51,525 bases of DNA from Candidatus Omnitrophota bacterium (GTDB lineage: Bacteria > Omnitrophota > Gorgyraeia > Zapsychrales > Fredricksoniimonadaceae). The notes below the pieces were generated by a model, which saw only the letters and a list, made by a program, of their open reading frames with translations, was not told the origin of the DNA and did no database searches. The stretch's first letter is position 1, and each line of letters starts with the position of its first letter. Shown in pieces: positions 32,300 through 51,525 of the stretch. Location: positions 1 through 51,525 of the forward strand of contig JADGCU010000006.1 of assembly GCA_015228785.1 (NCBI GenBank), read 5' to 3'. The translations under genes were made by a program, and so were the position numbers.

Positions 32300-33799
32300 T
32301 TATTTCTTTTCCCCGAATACATTGGCCGTAAAGATCTCAAGCGTTGTCCCGGGAGTTTTCCAGCAATCCGAAGGAAGCCCTGCTTTCTGCGAACAAAGTT
32401 CTGATAGGAATCTCCCCTTACTCCAACCTGTTTCAGTCGCTACCTGAGGGAGAAAAACGCCCCTATTAAAATGTCCGCGGCTTACGATCACACCGTGTTC
32501 TCCTAAAATAATCTCATCTGCGCTCTTAGCCACACGCGGCTTAGAAAGAACCGAAATTTCAACGTCAATATCCTTAAGCTCATCAGCTGTCACAGAATTA
32601 AACCGTGGATCTTCCGATGCGGCCGCGATCGCCATGCTCCGAATCGTCTGAAATAATGGCCCGCTTCCGAAAATGTTCCCAATACAGCCACGCAACTGCC
32701 CCTTCTTCTGAAGCGTCACAAACGCCCCTTCCTCTTCGTTCAACCGCAAATCTGCCTCCTGAACTTCCGGCGCCTTTCCCGTCTTAACAAAAGCATCGAG
32801 GGTCGATCGGGCGATCTCCAAGAGCCGCTTTTTCTGTGCCTCATTTAACGACGCAACACCTTGAACACTCTGTGTCACCGGCGTCTTTTCATTCTTATCA
32901 CGAAAAAACATGATCGAGGCGTACCCCACAACACTGGAGGTGTCTCCTGTCACATCAGCTGAGGTGGCATGCCGAAGGACCTTAGCCTGAGTATACCCGG
33001 CCATCTTGGCGTAAAGCATCGCCACAGTCACCACATGAAACCCGTCGACCTCCATCTCACCGGATTGATGACCAGCCCAAAGTTTCTCAACATCCATGGC
33101 CTCAATGGCTTGAAGCCCCCGATCATCGATCTCGCGAGCAACCTTGTCTGGATGAAAATGCGACTGATCAACACTCACATCAATAAGGACATCATCTCGC
33201 CCCTGGATCGAAGAAGCAAGCGCCTCGGCAAGAGCACGCAACACCTCTGGTTCCGGCGGGTATCCCACAATGATCGGAACAATCTTAGCATTAGGAAAAG
33301 CCTTCTGAATAAAAGGAAGTTGTGTCTCCACGGAATTCTCGGCACGGCCACCCGCACCTTCAAAGACATCACGACGGAAAGAAAACCGCTTGTCACATGA
33401 AGTAATCTTTTGCGCAAGGGCTTGATCCACCTCAATCCGCCCTAACGGCGTTACAAACGCCCCATCCGGCCAAATCGATGCCCCTTTGGAACTCACATGA
33501 TGGCTCGGCGCCAGGATCACAACAGTCGCAACCTTCCTGGCCTGCGCCGCTTTAAATCCATATGCCGCAACAGGACCTGAAAAAACAAACCCCGCATGAG
33601 GAGAAACAATAACTCCCATATCAGCCTCTGTAGGAGCATCCTTGGCATTAGCAAAGAATCCATCCAACATGACTGACAACTCACGCTTGTCCCCCGGATA
33701 CCAGCTTCCCGCGAGCGCCGCTTCTTTAATATGATCTTCAGATCTGGCAGAAAAACTTATGGCCATAAAAAACACCAAAATAAAAGCAATCTTATTCAT
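32300..33799 (-). CDS. Exported MEMO1-AMMECR1 fusion protein (AmmeMemoRadiSam proteins B and A)
   Basis: A 499-residue protein. The first 20 residues are a likely signal peptide (NKIAFILVFFMAISFSARS). Residues about 25-290 are a MEMO domain (ALAGSWYPGDKRELSVMLDGF, VIVSPHAGFVFSGPVAAYG, VILAPSHH, PIIVGY, VDQSHFHP, VTVAMLYAKM), related to extradiol dioxygenases and carrying their metal-type His. Residues about 325-495 are AMMECR1 (GAFVTLQKKGQLRGCIGNIFG, AIAAASEDPRFNSV, IDVEISVLSKPR, GVFLPQVATETGW). These two plus a radical SAM protein form the conserved AmmeMemoRadiSam system of unknown function; the radical SAM partner is not beside it. Export would be unusual. Start overlaps the upstream stop by four bases. 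Confidence 0.88.
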   Translation of the reverse strand: MNKIAFILVFFMAISFSARSEDHIKEAALAGSWYPGDKRELSVMLDGFFANAKDAPTEADMGVIVSPHAGFVFSGPVAAYGFKAAQARKVATVVILAPSHHVSSKGASIWPDGAFVTPLGRIEVDQALAQKITSCDKRFSFRRDVFEGAGGRAENSVETQLPFIQKAFPNAKIVPIIVGYPPEPEVLRALAEALASSIQGRDDVLIDVSVDQSHFHPDKVAREIDDRGLQAIEAMDVEKLWAGHQSGEMEVDGFHVVTVAMLYAKMAGYTQAKVLRHATSADVTGDTSSVVGYASIMFFRDKNEKTPVTQSVQGVASLNEAQKKRLLEIARSTLDAFVKTGKAPEVQEADLRLNEEEGAFVTLQKKGQLRGCIGNIFGSGPLFQTIRSMAIAAASEDPRFNSVTADELKDIDVEISVLSKPRVAKSADEIILGEHGVIVSRGHFNRGVFLPQVATETGWSKGRFLSELCSQKAGLPSDCWKTPGTTLEIFTANVFGEKK

Positions 33800-34251
33800 G
33801 ATCGCGTCTTCACAAAATAATTATCCAGACTTAACCACCTAGCCTGATCAATATTCCTAAGGCAAAAAAGTGTACTCACAAGAACAGTTACATCCAGAAT
33901 AATCACCCCGCGCAAAGGAAGATGCACAAGACTCCCGAAACAACCGCAGCTATCTATGGGAAGGTTTCTTACGATCGCCTGCCCCACCATGAGAATCAGC
34001 GAACAAGAGACCCCAGCGAGCGCTATAAGCCCCACATCAAGCCATATGCCCAGGAGAATCGAGAGGCCAATGAAAAGCTCTGCCCATGGGAAAAAAACCG
34101 AGGCCAGCTGAGCCAGGGGATCAGGGAGAATCTGATAGGCTTGAATAACATAAAGAAAATTCTCTGATGGGCCCACAGCCTTCTCGCCACCCGACACAAT
34201 AAAAAGAACTCCCAAAAGTACCCGAATAAAAAGAAGAATATTACGGCGCAT
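33796..34251 (-). CDS. MauE/DoxX-like membrane protein
   Basis: A 151-residue protein from ATG 34251 (MRRNILLFIRVLLGVLFIVSG); the open frame before it runs into the DsbA-like gene. Four helices are seen, with KAVGPSENFLYVIQAYQILP near residue 24, FFPWAELFIGLSILLG near 50 and a central NLPIDSCGCFGSL near 98 with a Cys-x-Cys pair. This matches the MauE/DoxX-like group, which supplies or maintains disulfide chemistry for periplasmic proteins. It overlaps the end of the DsbA-like gene by 11 bases, so they are translationally coupled. The likely role is to recycle the thioredoxin-fold partner. Confidence 0.8.
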   Translation of the reverse strand: MRRNILLFIRVLLGVLFIVSGGEKAVGPSENFLYVIQAYQILPDPLAQLASVFFPWAELFIGLSILLGIWLDVGLIALAGVSCSLILMVGQAIVRNLPIDSCGCFGSLVHLPLRGVIILDVTVLVSTLFCLRNIDQARWLSLDNYFVKTRS

Positions 34252-34870
34252 CTTTTTCCAAGATCTTCTCGATCTCCTCCTTGAAGCCCTTCCCCCCAAC
34301 GATCATCTTACCGTTCACAAAGAACGTAGGCGTTGAACTCACGCCCAAAGCATTCCCCTCCTTAATATCGTTCGTGATACGCGCCTCCATGGTCCCCCCA
34401 TTAACACAGGCCGAAAGCCTCACCCCATCAACTCCAAGCGAAACAGCCATCTCTGAAAAATATGTATCCACACTTACCATTTTCGACCAGCTTTTTTGAC
34501 TCTTGAAAAGAACATCATGGAACTGCCAAAACTTCCCCTGCTCCGCCGCGCATTCCGCATAAATAGCCGCACGACGGGCAAACGCATGCATAGGAAGAGG
34601 AAAATACTTAAGCTCAATATGAATCTTATCTGGATATTTTAGAAATTCTTCTTTAATATTCTTTGCAGCACGAGAGCATGCGGGACATTGAAAGTCTGTA
34701 TATTCCACGACCTGAATAGGCGCGCCTATTTTTCCCTTTTCACGGGGCCCCAACTGAGCCATAGGCGACTTTACAAAAGGCTTTTTAAAAAGAACTGCCT
34801 TCAATGTCAAGATCGCCCCCACACACATCAGAGCAATGAGTCCGGCAAGGACAGGTTTAGATATTTTCAC
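34241..34870 (-). CDS. DsbA-like periplasmic thiol-disulfide oxidoreductase
   Basis: A 209-residue protein with an N-terminal anchor or signal (PVLAGLIALMCVGAILTL). The thioredoxin-fold domain has VEYTDFQCPACSRAAKNI with a CPAC active site near residue 60, KYFPLPMHAFARRAAIYA, a helical insert and STPTFFVNGKMIVGG near 180 with the cis-Pro, the usual layout of DsbA/BdbD-like (Thioredoxin_4) proteins. GTG start with GAGGTG five bases upstream. First gene of a run with the MauE-like and MEMO-AMMECR1 genes. Confidence 0.88.
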   Translation of the reverse strand: MKISKPVLAGLIALMCVGAILTLKAVLFKKPFVKSPMAQLGPREKGKIGAPIQVVEYTDFQCPACSRAAKNIKEEFLKYPDKIHIELKYFPLPMHAFARRAAIYAECAAEQGKFWQFHDVLFKSQKSWSKMVSVDTYFSEMAVSLGVDGVRLSACVNGGTMEARITNDIKEGNALGVSSTPTFFVNGKMIVGGKGFKEEIEKILEKDAP

Positions 34871-34959: not shown

Positions 34960-37900
34960 TTACCCAGCCGTGTCGAGCGGCTCTCCTGATATAACCCCTA
35001 AAAACTGCGGAAGATCCTCAAGCGGCTGAATACTAAAAATGACAGGAACAAATCCAGATGCTTGTCTAAACCGCTCTAACTTCACGGGATCGATATTAAA
35101 CTGGATCGCGTTCCCCGTCCCTGTGGTCTTAACATCCATGCGCTGAGCCCTAAGATCAATACCACCTGTCTTATCCCCGGCCTTCATCGCCGACTCAGCA
35201 GCGATCTTGCTAAGCAAGATACGAGCATATTCAATAGCCTTGCCTTGATCAATAAAATTCGGACTCGTCACAATTGAAACAACTTTAGCCTTTCGAGCCA
35301 GAGACGCAAAATGATCGAGTGCCCTCTCGACCGCTTGCGAAGGAAGCCCGTTCAAAACGTCAATATCGATATCAACTATATCAAAACTTTTGCCGGACAC
35401 GTCCTGCGCAGAACCAGGTTCGATCTTGTAACGCAACTCTGTTCCAGGTGCCATGCCGACAGCCTGCATGGTATCCATGTTATAAAGCCAGCGCCAAACC
35501 GCAATAAGCCCCTTCTCTACAAACGGGGTAATAAACCCCTGAATACCCAGAATATTCAACCCGTAAGCATCTGCTTCTGATAACTTGTCCGATCCAGACC
35601 CGAGAAATTGAGGAGTAGAGCGGTAACGCTGCATAATCTCGGCGTCCGCATGCGCATCAATATGGAGCAGGCTATTACCCTTGCGAGAAATCCATCCTTT
35701 CTCAACAGCAAACCACCAGAAAGGAAACGCAAAATTATGATCATCTGCGATAAACACGCGTGGGCCATCAGGAATTTCGATGAGAACTTTCTTCTTTAAA
35801 CCTGTGATTTCTTTAAGGTCCTCACCTTTTAAAGACCGGTAAGAAACAATATTAGACTCGATAACCTGATCTGCCATTTCCGCCGACCATCCCCGCACAA
35901 CAGTCCAATCATCAACACCTGTCACATCGACCGCATCTCCGGCAAGGAGCTTCAGCCCAAAGGGAACGATCTCGGCAACCGCCTTTTCATTACGCTTCGT
36001 CACCTGATTCGACCCTGCTTGACCGTCTCTGTTTCTTGCCAAGAGCCGTTGAACAGCGCTCGCCGTTTCTTTATAGTTGATCACATTGGCCTTTACGAGA
36101 CCAGGAACACCTTTCACCTCCTCATCAGACCCTCCAGGTCCAAAACCATCGCCGAAATAAACAACTTTTGTACCAAACCTTGGAAAAATCTTCTTTCCCA
36201 TAGTCTCGCCTTTATTGATAGCCAAGAACCAGGAGTTGTAATGATAAAGCTCCCCATTTTTATCGCCATCAAACGGCTTAGTATCAATAAAAGGCCCCGA
36301 TGTATCAGGCAAAACAATGCCTCGCCTCTTGGTCTCGTGCCTCAAATACTCAAGGATCTCCGGGATCCTCTGCCCATGTAACAATCTAAACCTAACAGAA
36401 ATCACTCCGTCCGACGTTAATATCTGGGGCTCCATATTTTCCTCGGGAAACTTCTGTGCGATGGATAATAAGACACTCGAAAGCCTCTCCACCGTCGCAT
36501 CACCTGAAAAAGTAACTAAATCTGTCTTCAAATAACCCGTGCTGTCAACGTCATAGGAAGCTCCGCCACCCGCGACATATAGCACAATCTTCTTCCCGCC
36601 TGTCAATCGTGACCTGATCGGCATACCCTTAGCATCTTTGCTGTTTTCCAAATGCTCTCGCAATCTCTCAAAATTCCCATTGGTCAAGATCACGATCTTC
36701 TTTTTGGCATCAAGCGCAGCCAACAATGTTTCCACCATCTCTGAAGACAAGGGTGATTTGTCATCCGCGAGTGTGCCATCATAATCAAAAACCAGCACTT
36801 CCGCATCATCAAGATCTCCCATAGCGATCTTTTTAACAAGTTGTCCGTGATCAAACAGTTGATTCTCAACACTAGCCTTATCTGTCTTCATCGCCAACTC
36901 GCGGTCTGATCCCCACATCGGTGTTACAGCAACGTTCGCTTTCTTCTGAAAAAAGACCTTGCCGCTTTTAAAAGTAAGAATATCAGAAAGAAGAACTCCC
37001 TCTTTGCCAAGAACTTCCGCTATCCCTTGAGGATCATGATCAGGAAACACTCCCTGAAGATACAAAACACCTTCTGGACGCAATCGATCTACCATCGTTC
37101 GAATAAGCTCAGGAGAAAGATCCGGGCCAAAACGCATATAAATAAAATCCAAAGATCCCTCGGGAAGGAACTTTGCTGCATTCAACGCATCAGCACGGTA
37201 GAAATCAATATCAATAGGAAAACGTCCCTGAAGATATTTCATATCTTCAATGCCCTTTTTAAAACGATTGATCCACTTTGCAGCGATATCAACAACATGA
37301 AATCTAATCTCTGGCCCTTTCGCAGATCCTATTCCTCGGCCAAATGCTTTCATCATCACTAAGAATTCTTCCTTCCAAGGATCCCCAGGTGAAAAGAGGC
37401 CAATATCTCTCGGAGAAAAAGATGGCAACGCGCTATGAACAGCCTCGATCATTTCTTTAATATCCGGCTCAGCGGTATCAGGCGTTCCTGCCCACTGATT
37501 GAACTCGCCACTATCTTCACTATCATCAGCGTGCAAAGTATACTTTTCATTCCTCACCACCTCTACCCCTAATGACTTAAGCTCATAATCAAGATAATTG
37601 ATAACCACCTCTCCATTGGCCTTCAATAGAACAAACGACATCCCTTGAGAAGAAAAGACTTTCGTAGGTGCATGAATATAAATATTCTCATCTTTCATCC
37701 CACCCTGTCGTAAATACTCCACCAGATCATTCACATCACCATTCCCAGAACCTGGAACAATCACAATACGATGGTCATCATTCACGTGAGGAAGCATGTC
37801 CTTGGGCTCTCGAGTTGAAGAAAAATGCCCAAATCGAATTCCCACCCCATCTTTATCGTAAACAATAAAAGCTACACCCGTGCTATTTAAAGAAGCTGAA

Positions 37901-39384
37901 TATGTGTCCCCCAACGCATAACCTCCCTGAACAAACCACGCAAGCTTTCCTTCCTCAACCTCTTTCATGGCAGGGAGCCAAGGATGGGGGCTTTCTTGTC
38001 GCACATAAAAACGCTCTGCCTTCTCAGTCCTCCCCGATGAAGGAAGACTCGCCGTCTCCATAACCTCCGACAACTCATAATTTGCTGTCGAGGGCTCTGC
38101 GCTAGAGCGAACAGAAAAAAGAGTCCGCCCTTGAGGCAACATGGCTAGCTCCGATGTCGTTGCGCGCGCCCGGTCAAGCTTCATCCGACATCCCCCTGAG
38201 AAATATTTCCGCGGGATCATCTCCCCCGAAACCGAATCTTGCTCCTCCTTGATCATGTTAAAAGCACCTTTCTTGAAAGCCTCAACATAACGCTTCCAAA
38301 TATCCTCAGGAGAAAGATCGCTCAACGAGCCTTCGGCTCTTCCCAGGCCCACAATCTTCTTTCTGTCGACGTACACCTGAGACAAGGCGCTATCTTTAAT
38401 TTTCCTTTTAAACCAGTCCGCCAGGATCAACGAATGATAGATCTGCCGGAGCGGCGCAAAATTTCGGCCTTCATTGACTTCTCGCTCCAAGATAGGAACC
38501 ACAACTTCACGAAGAACCTGTTTGCCAAGATCTTGAGATGAAGAAGCTCTCGCCGCCTGACACTTGACACTTAAAGAAGGATCAATAACTCCAGAGGAAT
38601 TCAAGCACTCACCGGTCTCAACCCTCGAACGTCCCGCATCTTTCTCCTGGGCCAGATAATCACTCTCCAGCATCACTTTAAGCCGACTTTCAACAACATA
38701 AGCAACCGCCGTTCCATCATGTGCCGCATGTTCTGCGTCCTGTGCTTTTTCATAAACGACCGCCTTCTCCGGAACAATCCACACCTTATTAAACGTATCT
38801 ACCGGAATATCCGTCGTGCCATATTTCTCCCGAGACTTTTGGTACACCTCAGCCCAAAACTTCTTTCCCAGATCATCTTCAGGATAAATAGCTGATGCCG
38901 TAATCTGTTTCAAGAGATAATCCTGCGCTAAAAGTTCCCGCCCCATCTGAGTTTCACCAAACTCACTGGTAATAATCCGATCTTTCTCATACGGAGAAAG
39001 GTTGACCCAAAGATCATCCTCAGGGACAGTCAATGCGGCGAGAAAATATTTTATAAGACGAGTAGATTCCACCTTAAGGTCATCAGACGTAAAACGCAAC
39101 CCGGCTGCCCTCTGACGTCCAACACCTATCTTTTCGAAATCCCCTTTATCTAGAATAAAATCAAACTTAAATGGCTCCTGAGCATTGACCTTAATCCCTG
39201 CCAGAACAGGCGGTTGATAGGCATCTGAGAAGTGAACCATCGTTCCCGGCACAGACAGGCCATTGCCCATCGCTGCTCCCAAATCAGCAGCATGAACTGG
39301 CAGACTTGTAGCTGTAAAAATAACAGCCATAAATCCACACAACGTGCGCCTCAGCGCCAGCCATAAACAACCCATCTTTAACAT
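34960..39384 (-). CDS. Giant exported multidomain protein with methyltransferase-like, HAD and UPF0489 domains
   Basis: A 1474-residue protein. ATG with GGGGAGG eight bases upstream; signal peptide about residues 1-32 (LRRTLCGFMAVIFTATSLP, cut after VHA). Residues about 40-430 are a conserved-looking module of unknown fold (YEKDRIITSEFGETQMGREL, DTFNKVWIVPEKAVVYE, EVNEGRNFAPLRQIYHSLI, IPRKYFSGG). Residues 656-795 look like a SAM-methyltransferase Rossmann domain (FHVVDIAA, FYRADALNAA, LDFIYMRFG, DRLRPEGVLYLQG). Residues 861-1073 are a HAD phosphatase (VFDYDGTLADD, VILTNGN, YFGDGFGPGGSDEE). Residues 1206-1386 resemble UPF0489/arginase-like metal enzymes (DDHNFAFPFWWF, HIDAHADAEI, DIDIDVL). It ends in a DKTGGIDL module also present at 48213-48422. 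Domain activities in the periplasm are unproven. Confidence 0.8.
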   Translation of the reverse strand: MLKMGCLWLALRRTLCGFMAVIFTATSLPVHAADLGAAMGNGLSVPGTMVHFSDAYQPPVLAGIKVNAQEPFKFDFILDKGDFEKIGVGRQRAAGLRFTSDDLKVESTRLIKYFLAALTVPEDDLWVNLSPYEKDRIITSEFGETQMGRELLAQDYLLKQITASAIYPEDDLGKKFWAEVYQKSREKYGTTDIPVDTFNKVWIVPEKAVVYEKAQDAEHAAHDGTAVAYVVESRLKVMLESDYLAQEKDAGRSRVETGECLNSSGVIDPSLSVKCQAARASSSQDLGKQVLREVVVPILEREVNEGRNFAPLRQIYHSLILADWFKRKIKDSALSQVYVDRKKIVGLGRAEGSLSDLSPEDIWKRYVEAFKKGAFNMIKEEQDSVSGEMIPRKYFSGGCRMKLDRARATTSELAMLPQGRTLFSVRSSAEPSTANYELSEVMETASLPSSGRTEKAERFYVRQESPHPWLPAMKEVEEGKLAWFVQGGYALGDTYSASLNSTGVAFIVYDKDGVGIRFGHFSSTREPKDMLPHVNDDHRIVIVPGSGNGDVNDLVEYLRQGGMKDENIYIHAPTKVFSSQGMSFVLLKANGEVVINYLDYELKSLGVEVVRNEKYTLHADDSEDSGEFNQWAGTPDTAEPDIKEMIEAVHSALPSFSPRDIGLFSPGDPWKEEFLVMMKAFGRGIGSAKGPEIRFHVVDIAAKWINRFKKGIEDMKYLQGRFPIDIDFYRADALNAAKFLPEGSLDFIYMRFGPDLSPELIRTMVDRLRPEGVLYLQGVFPDHDPQGIAEVLGKEGVLLSDILTFKSGKVFFQKKANVAVTPMWGSDRELAMKTDKASVENQLFDHGQLVKKIAMGDLDDAEVLVFDYDGTLADDKSPLSSEMVETLLAALDAKKKIVILTNGNFERLREHLENSKDAKGMPIRSRLTGGKKIVLYVAGGGASYDVDSTGYLKTDLVTFSGDATVERLSSVLLSIAQKFPEENMEPQILTSDGVISVRFRLLHGQRIPEILEYLRHETKRRGIVLPDTSGPFIDTKPFDGDKNGELYHYNSWFLAINKGETMGKKIFPRFGTKVVYFGDGFGPGGSDEEVKGVPGLVKANVINYKETASAVQRLLARNRDGQAGSNQVTKRNEKAVAEIVPFGLKLLAGDAVDVTGVDDWTVVRGWSAEMADQVIESNIVSYRSLKGEDLKEITGLKKKVLIEIPDGPRVFIADDHNFAFPFWWFAVEKGWISRKGNSLLHIDAHADAEIMQRYRSTPQFLGSGSDKLSEADAYGLNILGIQGFITPFVEKGLIAVWRWLYNMDTMQAVGMAPGTELRYKIEPGSAQDVSGKSFDIVDIDIDVLNGLPSQAVERALDHFASLARKAKVVSIVTSPNFIDQGKAIEYARILLSKIAAESAMKAGDKTGGIDLRAQRMDVKTTGTGNAIQFNIDPVKLERFRQASGFVPVIFSIQPLEDLPQFLGVISGEPLDTAG

Positions 39385-48212: not shown

Positions 48213-51200
48213 TTACGCGCTCCCAGTCCCCATCTTGGCCTCAAGCTCAGAAAACAACGGCAAGGTAGAAGCCGGCTCAATCTTAAAGATCACAGGAACA
48301 AGACCATCGATCTTAATATTATCCAGATCCTGCTGACCAACCGGAAGAACCATGCCCTTCCCATCACGCCTGATCTGCATGTCCAAACTAGCAGCGCTAA
48401 AATCAATACCACCGGTCTTATCCATGGCTTTTTCAGACTCAATTGCCGACACCGTCATGGCCTTTTCAGAAATAAAAGGCGGTCGCACCGGCTTCACATC
48501 ACCAAATCTTTCACGCAAAGCATTAACCGCCCTGTCCTTTTGATAGATTGCGACCCATCGTTCATTTTCTGTAACCGCAGTATCTCTAAATTTCTGAAAG
48601 GTCCAAATAATCCAAGGAGCCGTTTCCTTTGTCGAGACTTCGATCAACAGTTCTCCCGACCACTTACGGGATTCAATATTGGCCCCGTGGTTCAAAAGAT
48701 TCTTACATAACGCAGGAACAGCACGTTCCTTGATAACTTCTTTAATTTCTCGATACGGGGCGCTACTGCCCCCGCTTCCCGCATTCTGGAAGGCCGAAGT
48801 ACTGATCAACTCATTTACCTTTTCCTCATCCGCCGCTACGCCCGTCATCGCCGGCTTTGGTGCCTCCTGAGCCTGCGGCCCCGCTATTGTCGTCACTCGG
48901 CTCGCTTTAATTTCCTCCACGGTCTCCCTAAACTTAGCAAGTTCTTGCCAACGGGTCATGCCCCCCAAACGAAAAGGATCCTTAAAATTCTGAACATACC
49001 AGGCCCATGCCGTCGACGCTGTGCTTTCAACAGGCCTCCCATTCCATCCAAAAGGGATATGAACTGACTTGTTTACATAAAGATATCCCTTCTTGTCGCC
49101 ATCAATACGACTTAAAGATTCCAGGCCCTTCGTCATGGATACCGCATCAGCCAGCGCCTCTTCTGCCCATGAAGGATGTGAATCTTTATAATGAAGTGAA
49201 AGCTCCAAACAAGCTGCGATGGCCCCGGCCGTCCACTCACCGCTAAAAACATCATGACTATCGGTATACCCTACCCCGAACAGTTTCCCATCCTCAGAAT
49301 ATCCAGAACGCGCTTTTGTGGTCTTCCACATACGATAAGAAGCTCCCTCCCCATACATCTCATCTAACTTCTTGGGAGAAAAAGAAACAATGCCCCATGT
49401 CTGGACATCAACCGCAAAATCACGATTTGGCCTGAATTCTTTCCCATCATACAAGCCCCCCTGATAGAGGATGCCCGCCTCTTTATCCAATCCATACTTT
49501 TTAATGTACTCTTCAATGCCATCCATCATTTTCTTATAACTAGAGTCTCCCGTAACTTCATACAACATTCTAAGGCCGGCGTAAGCGGAAAAATTATTCT
49601 CATTAGAAATATCATTTGGATTCTTCTCAAATGTCCCCTCCGGCGCATGATGGATAGCGCCTATATCATCAGTCAAAGCTTTGAACGCAGGAATAAGACT
49701 TTCGGCTAATTGAACCTCTTCACTATTACGAAGGATATTACCCCCATACTTCGCATGTGCGGTCTGAAGCGCTGCCATAATAATCCAGGCATTTTCACCC
49801 ATGATCGGTTTCCAGTCTTTCCATTCACTCTCTTCACCTGTTAAAGGATCAGCATCTTTCCATTTATCAGATACTGTGCGAAAAAATAATGCTTCACGGG
49901 GACCTAATACCTTCTTATCCTTTCCATATCTGAAATACTGCGAACCCGAAGCCCTGATGCTCCGCATCTCCCCCCATGAATCCGAGCGAAGTGTTCTAAT
50001 AAAAGTATTCGCCAAATTAAGATCTTTACGCTGAGGATCAAGAACTGAGGCGATCACACCGGCAGAACCATCATAAAAATTGAGGCTGCGATTAATCATC
50101 CGACGCTCTATCCCGTCTGGAATGGATTTCCACAAATCCAGTCTTTCTTTCAAATCTTTTGGGACCTTAAAACTACGGAGCATATTGTCTTCAAAAACAT
50201 TCCCCTTCAACCACATCATGGGATTCGCAGGTGCTTCGGCCGCTTGTAAAAAAGATGGCAGACTAAGAACCGCTAAAGCAGCGGCAGCCACTATTCCCCA
50301 ATATTTCTTGCGAACCGAGTTCAACGCCGAAGAACCTTCACTCTTCATCGCGGCCTCAGAAGTCTGCTTTAAAATCCAAGCACCTACCTCACGTACAACA
50401 TCATCAGACTCTCTCATGTAAGGCGCCACGGTGGCCATGCTCCCATGGGCACTCGCGTCATTCGTGCCATAACTGAACCGGATCATATTTAAAGGAGTAG
50501 GCGAAGAAGAAGACGGCGCCTGAAGATCCAGACCTTTCTCCTGCGTCGCCTTAGTTTTTAGCCCTTCTGACGGAAGAGGGACACTCCGCTCGATTGAGAA
50601 TGACTTTTGGGGCGGCGCCTCCCGGAATTGACCCTCTTTCGTCACCCGAACCTCGCCTGAAGATGTCCCCGAAAACACTTTGACCCAATCATCATCCTTG
50701 AGATCTGGATTCTCTTTCTTAAAATCATCCAGGACCTTCTTCATCTCCGCCCGTTGATCTTCCGGCGCAGCCGGTATGACAAGATCCCGGATCTGGGCCA
50801 ATGTATTTCCCCCGCCAACTGAAGTATACGTTGCGTTCGCATAGACCTCGCGCCCTTTCCACTCCTGACTCTTATCAGACCGCTCCTCATAAAACGGAAC
50901 CGGCTTAAGCGTATAAACCTTATGTCCCGGGACCATTTCCATGGAAAACTGGTCATCTGCGATCTTCCAGGTCGCCGGCGTTTCTGTCTCTGAAAGGAAC
51001 ACATGCGTTGCTGCAGGATTTTCTTTGACAACCTTCTCAAATTCAGACTTTAAAAGCTCTTTATCAACAGGGATTGATGTCTCATCGATCTGTTTTCGAA
51101 TGTCCGCGACCGTCGCATAACTTTGGCGCATGCTCATCATGGACGTCATCATCGGTGTCCCCTGCGGCACCTCTGAATGGATCGCCGGGGTTTCCGGAGA

Positions 51201-51525
51201 CCCGAACTCCAAGACTTGAGGAATTCTGGGACCGCCTTCCATCCCGGGCTGATTGACATATTCTTCAATAGCCTTCTGATATCGCGCCAACCTGTTGAGC
51301 CGTTGCCAATGCTGCGGATCAATGCGTACGGTCTTTAAAGTAACATCCCTGTCTAAAAGCATCTGGCCAGACGCGTCCAGGTAGTTTTTATTGTAGGGAT
51401 CATTCTTGAGCTTCTCATACTGCCAATAAAAGAACGTCTGCTTGCTTGAGACAAGCGTCTTCTTAAGATTCTCCTGAACATCTTCAGCCTGCCCCGCCTG
51501 TCTGCCGCCCTTCATATAAGTTTTG
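48213..51525 (-). CDS. Giant multidomain protein with glycosidase-like alpha/alpha barrel (5' partial)
   Basis: The frame is open to the right edge; ATG 51515 has no ribosome site, so the true start is probably outside. Counting from that Met: residues 1-400 are charged and Pro/Ser-rich without known domains; a helix at about 405-425 (IVAAAALAVLSLPSFLQAAE) looks like an internal signal or anchor; residues about 470-850 look like an alpha/alpha-barrel glycoside hydrolase (GENAWIIMAALQTAHAKYGG, NFSAYAGLRMLYEVTGDSSY, VDVQTWGIVSFSPKKLDEMY, WAWYVQNFKDPFRLGG). A HEAT-like stretch lies at about 910-1000 (AVPALCKNLLNHGANIESRK). The last 65 residues (DKTGGIDF through LVPVIFKIEP) match the end of the 1474-residue protein. 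Catalytic residues not assigned. Confidence 0.7.
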   Translation of the reverse strand, partial: KTYMKGGRQAGQAEDVQENLKKTLVSSKQTFFYWQYEKLKNDPYNKNYLDASGQMLLDRDVTLKTVRIDPQHWQRLNRLARYQKAIEEYVNQPGMEGGPRIPQVLEFGSPETPAIHSEVPQGTPMMTSMMSMRQSYATVADIRKQIDETSIPVDKELLKSEFEKVVKENPAATHVFLSETETPATWKIADDQFSMEMVPGHKVYTLKPVPFYEERSDKSQEWKGREVYANATYTSVGGGNTLAQIRDLVIPAAPEDQRAEMKKVLDDFKKENPDLKDDDWVKVFSGTSSGEVRVTKEGQFREAPPQKSFSIERSVPLPSEGLKTKATQEKGLDLQAPSSSSPTPLNMIRFSYGTNDASAHGSMATVAPYMRESDDVVREVGAWILKQTSEAAMKSEGSSALNSVRKKYWGIVAAAALAVLSLPSFLQAAEAPANPMMWLKGNVFEDNMLRSFKVPKDLKERLDLWKSIPDGIERRMINRSLNFYDGSAGVIASVLDPQRKDLNLANTFIRTLRSDSWGEMRSIRASGSQYFRYGKDKKVLGPREALFFRTVSDKWKDADPLTGEESEWKDWKPIMGENAWIIMAALQTAHAKYGGNILRNSEEVQLAESLIPAFKALTDDIGAIHHAPEGTFEKNPNDISNENNFSAYAGLRMLYEVTGDSSYKKMMDGIEEYIKKYGLDKEAGILYQGGLYDGKEFRPNRDFAVDVQTWGIVSFSPKKLDEMYGEGASYRMWKTTKARSGYSEDGKLFGVGYTDSHDVFSGEWTAGAIAACLELSLHYKDSHPSWAEEALADAVSMTKGLESLSRIDGDKKGYLYVNKSVHIPFGWNGRPVESTASTAWAWYVQNFKDPFRLGGMTRWQELAKFRETVEEIKASRVTTIAGPQAQEAPKPAMTGVAADEEKVNELISTSAFQNAGSGGSSAPYREIKEVIKERAVPALCKNLLNHGANIESRKWSGELLIEVSTKETAPWIIWTFQKFRDTAVTENERWVAIYQKDRAVNALRERFGDVKPVRPPFISEKAMTVSAIESEKAMDKTGGIDFSAASLDMQIRRDGKGMVLPVGQQDLDNIKIDGLVPVIFKIEPASTLPLFSELEAKMGTGSA

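Follow-up and report, generated by a model that had tools for sequence, protein, structure and literature searches.

The two giant proteins P0002 and P0003 encoded in the window (the whole 51,525-base contig JADGCU010000006.1 of a Candidatus Omnitrophota bacterium) are closed by a shared module of ~60 residues with a GGID core, and this module is interpreted, at a probability of about one half, as the C-terminal half of a two-ended wrapper. By sequence, a complete giant consists of a signal peptide, an N-terminal domain (N-domain) of ~334 residues ending in KYFSGG, one or several unrelated passengers and the GGID tail. The tail would donate beta-strands to the N-domain, first from GGID[LF]..(3-5)..L.[LI] and then from G[FL]VPVI..I.P, and the two ends would close on each other with the passenger held as an insert. 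Short tetrapeptides at the borders would be read by a lineage-specific protease, or would at least mark exposed linkers, and the giant would behave as a polyprotein that is split into its captured units. The broader proposal, a class-wide bacterial system in which genes are captured between an exported N-domain and a strand-donating tail and the products are cut at a tetrapeptide varying with its protease by lineage, is put forward tentatively, as a possibility.

The endings of P0002 (DKTGGIDLRA...GFVPVIFSIQPLEDLPQFL) and P0003 (DKTGGIDFSA...GLVPVIFKIEPASTLPLF) were aligned by BLASTP over 78 columns with 37% identity (E = 2e-8), and the residues quoted for them in the preliminary description, which had proposed a common C-terminal module on otherwise different large exported proteins, match exactly. 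Both open reading frames (ORFs) lie on the minus strand, and the plus-strand translation of the positions quoted there is unrelated. In the window's genome, 17 copies of the tail were found by tblastn with one end and 23 by the profile built from those (A1; best E = 1e-28). A chance match of the two endings was rejected on the basis of this alignment and the 23 profile copies. Of the 123 distinct ORFs that possess a real stop, all had the end of the module 0-64 residues ahead of it.

The tail was found in 52 of 55 sampled relatives, with up to 56 copies per genome; it was absent by profile from the same-order genomes G033, G035 and G036, the last two of which were also without the N-domain. 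In a phylum-wide sample it was present in 35 of 237 genomes, 28 belonging to the window's own order (30 sampled there) and the other 7 bearing 1-2 copies each. A scan of 85k species with two conserved peptide patterns, which reach close relatives only, returned no module outside Omnitrophota, all 29 of its loci being named Omnitrophota or metagenome-assembled genome (MAG) genera submitted alongside; the label 'Elulimicrobium' on some of these records is doubtful, since NCBI taxonomy puts the name elsewhere. GGID endings, which had been mentioned for Omnitrophota giants in the preliminary description, are borne out by these loci and by their order-wide occurrence; neither a mid-protein copy nor a cytoplasmic carrier was seen, and the module was not confined to the two giants. 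Wrapper genes form tandem arrays at L116 (1756-13515) and L098 (77-11345), with three complete ones in a row on contig C100 of the window's genome and three on a named MAG contig, which suggests that wrapper genes spread by tandem duplication.

The core of the tail is GGI(D/K) followed by a hydrophobic residue and alternating hydrophobics, and the sequence beyond it depends on the family. In the window's order it is of the VPVI type and in f38 of a related LTFRIV type; f15, f29 and f30 have a helical extension of ~110 residues past the GGI core, and f24 has nearly nothing (GGIDLRNMRINLR, then the stop). As the stop of the f24 tails lies 13-17 residues from the tail start, a single strand is taken as the common core. 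The tails were polar or beta-like and without a transmembrane helix.

A second conserved end accompanies the tail. Among 59 complete module proteins longer than 600 residues, 58 began with a signal-peptide-like segment and a domain of ~334 positions (roughly 440-550 bits with a model from the set), terminating in the motif (P)RKYFSGG, and the sole exception had a masked N-terminus. Signal peptides were judged by inspection (hydrophobic segment and typical c-region) and not by a dedicated predictor. For the reciprocal sample, N-domain proteins were taken regardless of their C-terminus, and [GA]G[IV][DNK] was present in the last 220 residues of 51 of the 58 with a stop, versus 6% of interior 220-mers; several of the remaining 7 carried near variants (GGVAFNALPI, GGISLEGV, GGISLKNV), and L242 ends at a contig edge. 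By its profile (A3), the N-domain was detected in 72 of the 237 genomes, the order accounting for 28 and other families of its class for the remaining 44, at 1-25 copies. A known-domain identity was tried and rejected for it: the 53 members scanned gave no convincing Pfam match (best E = 0.006, scattered), no PDB sequence was matched, and P0002 had no NCBIfam match in the N-domain region. Contigs L238, L239 and L240, listed as 'viral' in IMG/VR, carry the N-domain as well (45-49% identity) and may be misclassified bacterial DNA.

The statement in the preliminary description that nothing is shared ahead of the module therefore has to be revised in view of the common N-domain. P0002 and P0003 apparently lack other common sequence because the N-terminus of P0003 is cut off by the contig end, with no start codon within the contig and the frame open to base 51524. 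The exported type of these otherwise different large proteins agrees with the signal-peptide-like segments at the start of complete members. At the level of sequence, the data show a two-ended family, order- to class-wide and with lineage-specific internal motifs, both ends of which are conserved over dozens of paralogues and the interior of which is not.

AlphaFold models were made for the isolated tail (alignment of 115 sequences) and for a full-length protein of 774 residues (a shallower alignment of 48 sequences). The isolated tail gave a mean predicted local distance difference test (pLDDT) of 71, a predicted template modelling score (pTM) of 0.28 and zero strands, and in this prediction it did not fold on its own. 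In the full-length model, the N-domain blocks mostly reached pLDDT 80-95, the interior stayed below 50, and the tail formed strands at 711-713, 720-725 and 747-756 together with a helix, at pLDDT about 77-88. Since the isolated tail is strandless and the interior unfolded, the N-domain is, from these models, the likely docking partner of the tail. The model of L079 contains an additional short strand just past the N-domain (residues 358-379; E366-375, pLDDT 81-87), which corresponds in alignment to a D.V motif that family f1 proteins conserve loosely, and which may represent a third wrapper piece.

The borders within the giants are marked by a recurrent tetrapeptide. ExAM occurred 70 times in 21 proteins of the window's genome, against 5.3 +/- 2.1 in shuffles, and twice in 27 ordinary window genes used as the control (1.3 expected); an unbiased scan for patterns of 3 or 4 residues put E.AM top by far (98 vs 6.5 expected). 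Elsewhere, D.AM, the form of sister genera, ranked top in G004 and G047; G212 and the f15/f29 set had ASP/SSP as their top motif, G240 had DGG and G045 had SSS. ExAM was located within 40 residues past the N-domain in 9 of 14 proteins and within 40 residues ahead of GGID in 10 of 21, with ~1/14 expected, and none of 40 sites fell within Pfam domains (4.8 expected). Free codon use and the lack of an upstream ribosome-binding pattern point to selection on the amino acids of ExAM. Two other causes were rejected: internal translation start at the ExAM Met, as the main cause, by the missing ribosome-binding pattern and by the switch of E to D between genera, and a dispersed DNA repeat by the varying codons. 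ExAM looks like a short peptide selected at exposed borders, and a co-evolving protease would be the simplest reason for such selection. On contig C30 of the window's genome, a 123-residue module ORF (L120) lies behind a long ORF with ExAM-like sites but in a different frame, and the pair has the appearance of a giant split by a frameshift or by an error in the assembly.

The passengers identified by Pfam comprise radical SAM with B12-binding, histidine-kinase ATPase, receiver, cNMP-binding, glycogen debranching with GH77, and starch synthase units, as well as methyltransferases, glutamate dehydrogenase, phosphoglucomutase (PGM), histidine phosphatase, DnaJ, HAD, UPF0489 and AvrB_AvrC; several interiors had no Pfam match. 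Where checked, the catalytic motifs were intact (radical SAM CxxxCxxC, DnaJ HPD, PGM TASHN, RHG and the receiver aspartates); the passengers are variable enzymes of mostly cytosolic type. The AvrB_AvrC match (56 bits, cut-off 23) lies in L080 (5903-10195), inside an Omnitrophota wrapper; the family is named for plant-pathogen effectors. The UPF0489 unit of P0002 recurs within module-bearing ORFs in G018, where the copy directly follows DSAM, and probably in G019, and it exists as a free-standing ORF of ~257 residues in nine other genomes, including the wrapper-less G035. The C-termini of the free-standing proteins coincide with the junction of P0002 into its ESAM-GGID tail; because identity is only 32-41%, they are homologues and not a proven source. 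Signal-like hydrophobic segments were present within 110 residues past the N-domain in 10 of 58 proteins, against 4% at random, with a Tat-like SRRSFLKF and a lipobox-like SSGC as examples. The passengers look like captured whole genes.

Several points weigh against the two-ended wrapper. Docking of the tail on the N-domain rests on secondary structure and pLDDT, without a contact map or predicted aligned error (PAE), and Foldseek against PDB and viral models gave no match, a search hampered by the model's unfolded interior. The divergence of N-domain and tail was weakly correlated among 14 paralogues of the window's genome (r = 0.24, p = 0.13); over all species, the distances gave r = 0.71. 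The tetrapeptide, a putative cleavage site, could instead be a favoured linker, and no protease for it was identified, without a genome-wide presence/absence comparison. An N-terminal Sec signal also fits passengers that need [4Fe-4S], NAD or ATP poorly, unless these are released before export or delivered into another cytosol.

By analogy with the C-terminal domain (CTD) of the type IX secretion system (T9SS), the tail might instead be an export or anchoring signal for a separate machinery, with the N-domain as a companion prodomain. The Sec-type N-terminus, the strict C-terminal place, the many unrelated cargos and the high copy number would fit such a signal, and the T9SS CTD is likewise a conserved beta domain, through which proteins are recognised for translocation across the outer membrane (PMC4804311). 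This explanation is regarded as less probable than the wrapper, yet as a serious rival of it. None of the 115 tails matched any NCBIfam model, the T9SS sorting profiles TIGR04183 and TIGR04131 included, or any PDB sequence, and P0002 and P0003 gave no match to the T9SS sorting domain (PF18962) in Pfam. The SprA/Sov translocon (PF14349) was matched in 0 of 14 genomes and in 0 of 14 control genomes as well, so that this search says little either way. Of 14 genomes bearing the tail or the N-domain, 6 had exosortase (PF09721) above its cut-off, and its presence did not track the module; sorting by exosortase was rejected, and no dedicated partner gene of the kind considered in the preliminary description was found. 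A free-standing signal would have no need of the N-domain that accompanies every tail, and one tail extension freely gives way to another from family to family. The sorting, anchoring or secretion signal first proposed is not demonstrated; since the tail is tied to the N-domain, has no fold alone and acquires strands once modelled within the full-length protein, a self-completing wrapper fits at least as well.

It appears improbable that the giants are large surface or coat proteins whose ends serve as assembly or polymerisation modules, with the interiors as bulk or spacer and the tetrapeptides as flexible linkers. Giant ORFs are a known trait of Omnitrophota, and passages of PMC10066038 propose an adhesion or coat role for them; the many interiors without a Pfam match would agree with it. 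However, recognisable passengers retain their catalytic motifs, none found is an adhesin repeat, and a fixed Met together with the switch of the first residue from E to D between genera would be unusual in a passive linker. Least probable of all is that the giants are Sec-exported carriers of effectors acting as enzymes within a host or prey cell: intact cytosolic-type enzymes behind an export signal, the AvrB_AvrC match and the host dependence proposed for the phylum in passages of PMC10066038 speak for it, but Sec- or Tat-like signals within passengers would be senseless for host-delivered cargo, and resemblance in sequence to an effector family is no proof of function.

The features of the two giants are collected in Table 1. 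The N-domain of P0002 terminates just past ...KYFSGG, and the interval given for it takes in the last part of the signal peptide. Immediately downstream of P0002, and like it on the minus strand, come genes for a DsbA/thioredoxin-like protein (34241-34870), a MauE/DoxX membrane protein (33796-34299) and a Memo-AMMECR1 fusion (32300-33799), and their co-transcription with P0002 is possible.

Table 1. Positions of the features of P0002 and P0003 in the window
Feature	Position	Strand	Evidence or remark
Giant P0002, 1474 residues	34960..39384	-	signal peptide, N-domain, passengers, GGID C-module
P0002 signal-peptide-like N-terminus (MLKMGCLWLALRRTLCGFMAVIFTATSLPVHAA)	39286..39384	-	sequence; present in all complete relatives; no dedicated predictor
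P0002 conserved N-terminal wrapper domain, ~334 profile positions	38191..39336	-	profile A3, 462 bits
P0002 boundary tetrapeptide ELAM, 13 residues past N-domain	38140..38151	-	
P0002 boundary tetrapeptide ELAM, ahead of HAD-like passenger	36889..36900	-	
P0002 HAD-like hydrolase passenger, weak	36616..36792	-	PF13344 E = 1e-3, TIGR01484 E = 2e-4
P0002 UPF0489 / peptide-arginase-like passenger	35467..35757	-	homologues are free-standing genes of ~257 residues in relatives
P0002 boundary tetrapeptide ESAM, immediately ahead of GGID	35185..35196	-	
P0002 C-terminal GGID module (GGIDLRAQRMDVKTT...GFVPVIFSIQPLEDLPQFLGVI)	34990..35166	-	
Giant P0003, at least 1100 residues, N-terminus cut by contig end	48213..51515	-	frame open to 51524
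P0003 boundary tetrapeptide EAAM	50346..50357	-	
P0003 internal signal-peptide-like segment (RKKYWGIVAAAALAVLSLPSFLQAAEA), 12 residues past EAAM	50232..50312	-	sequence
P0003 weak match to cellobiose 2-epimerase EpiA	49470..49826	-	E = 0.0034, 16 bits, far under cut-off
P0003 boundary tetrapeptide EKAM	48456..48467	-	
P0003 boundary tetrapeptide EKAM, immediately ahead of DKTGGID	48423..48434	-	
P0003 C-terminal GGID module (GGIDFSAASLDMQIRRDGKG...GLVPVIFKIEPASTLPLFSE)	48246..48413	-	

Giant proteins of Omnitrophota have been characterised as weakly conserved and difficult to assign. With a conserved front and tail, a family of them can be defined from sequence alone. In some species the wrapper family has 20-60 copies and takes up several percent of the genome; in the window's genome it covers about 103 kb (5%). 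It provides two profiles for detecting the family, borders for excising the passengers and the tetrapeptide as a candidate processing site. For bacteria, polyproteins of several enzymes divided by lineage-specific separator motifs would, if real, be unusual.

No protein database searched describes the two-ended arrangement. Its closest analogue is the set of T9SS CTD proteins of Bacteroidota (gingipains, for example), which like the giants combine a Sec signal with a beta-rich domain at the C-terminus of unrelated multi-domain cargo, form large paralogue sets and are processed as cargo (PMC4804311); complete members of the present family share with such cargo an N-terminal hydrophobic segment with a typical c-region, by inspection. 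The giants differ in having no sequence match to them, a tail built on a GGI(D) core and 13-130 residues long, an obligatory N-domain of 334 residues, lineage-specific internal tetrapeptides, an origin in the phylum Omnitrophota and a machinery that is hypothetical. PEP-CTERM, GlyGly-CTERM and LPXTG tails are, like GGID, short C-terminal signatures on many exported proteins, whereas neither a transmembrane helix nor a basic tail follows GGID. Viral and eukaryotic polyproteins also contain several enzymes per reading frame with a repeated short motif between them, and several independent Pfam units per ORF with a recurrent site between them (by motif enrichment and placement) were found in the giants; these differ by their place on a bacterial chromosome, their signal peptide, their two conserved end pieces and a cleavage that is only predicted. 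The giant ORFs of Omnitrophota (Seymour et al. 2023, PMC10066038) belong to the same phylum, are long, with few annotated domains, and have suggested surface roles; the study counts ORFs above 20 kb, calls most of them (in Velamenicoccia) poorly conserved and includes a Velamenicoccus protein of 39,678 residues. Such conserved ends are not described in main-text passages of PMC10066038 (supplements and subscription literature lay outside the search). The module proteins resemble these giant ORFs in their Omnitrophota origin, large ORF and few known domains, and differ from them as a family set by its conserved ends, mostly of 700-5000 residues and with recognisable enzymes inside.
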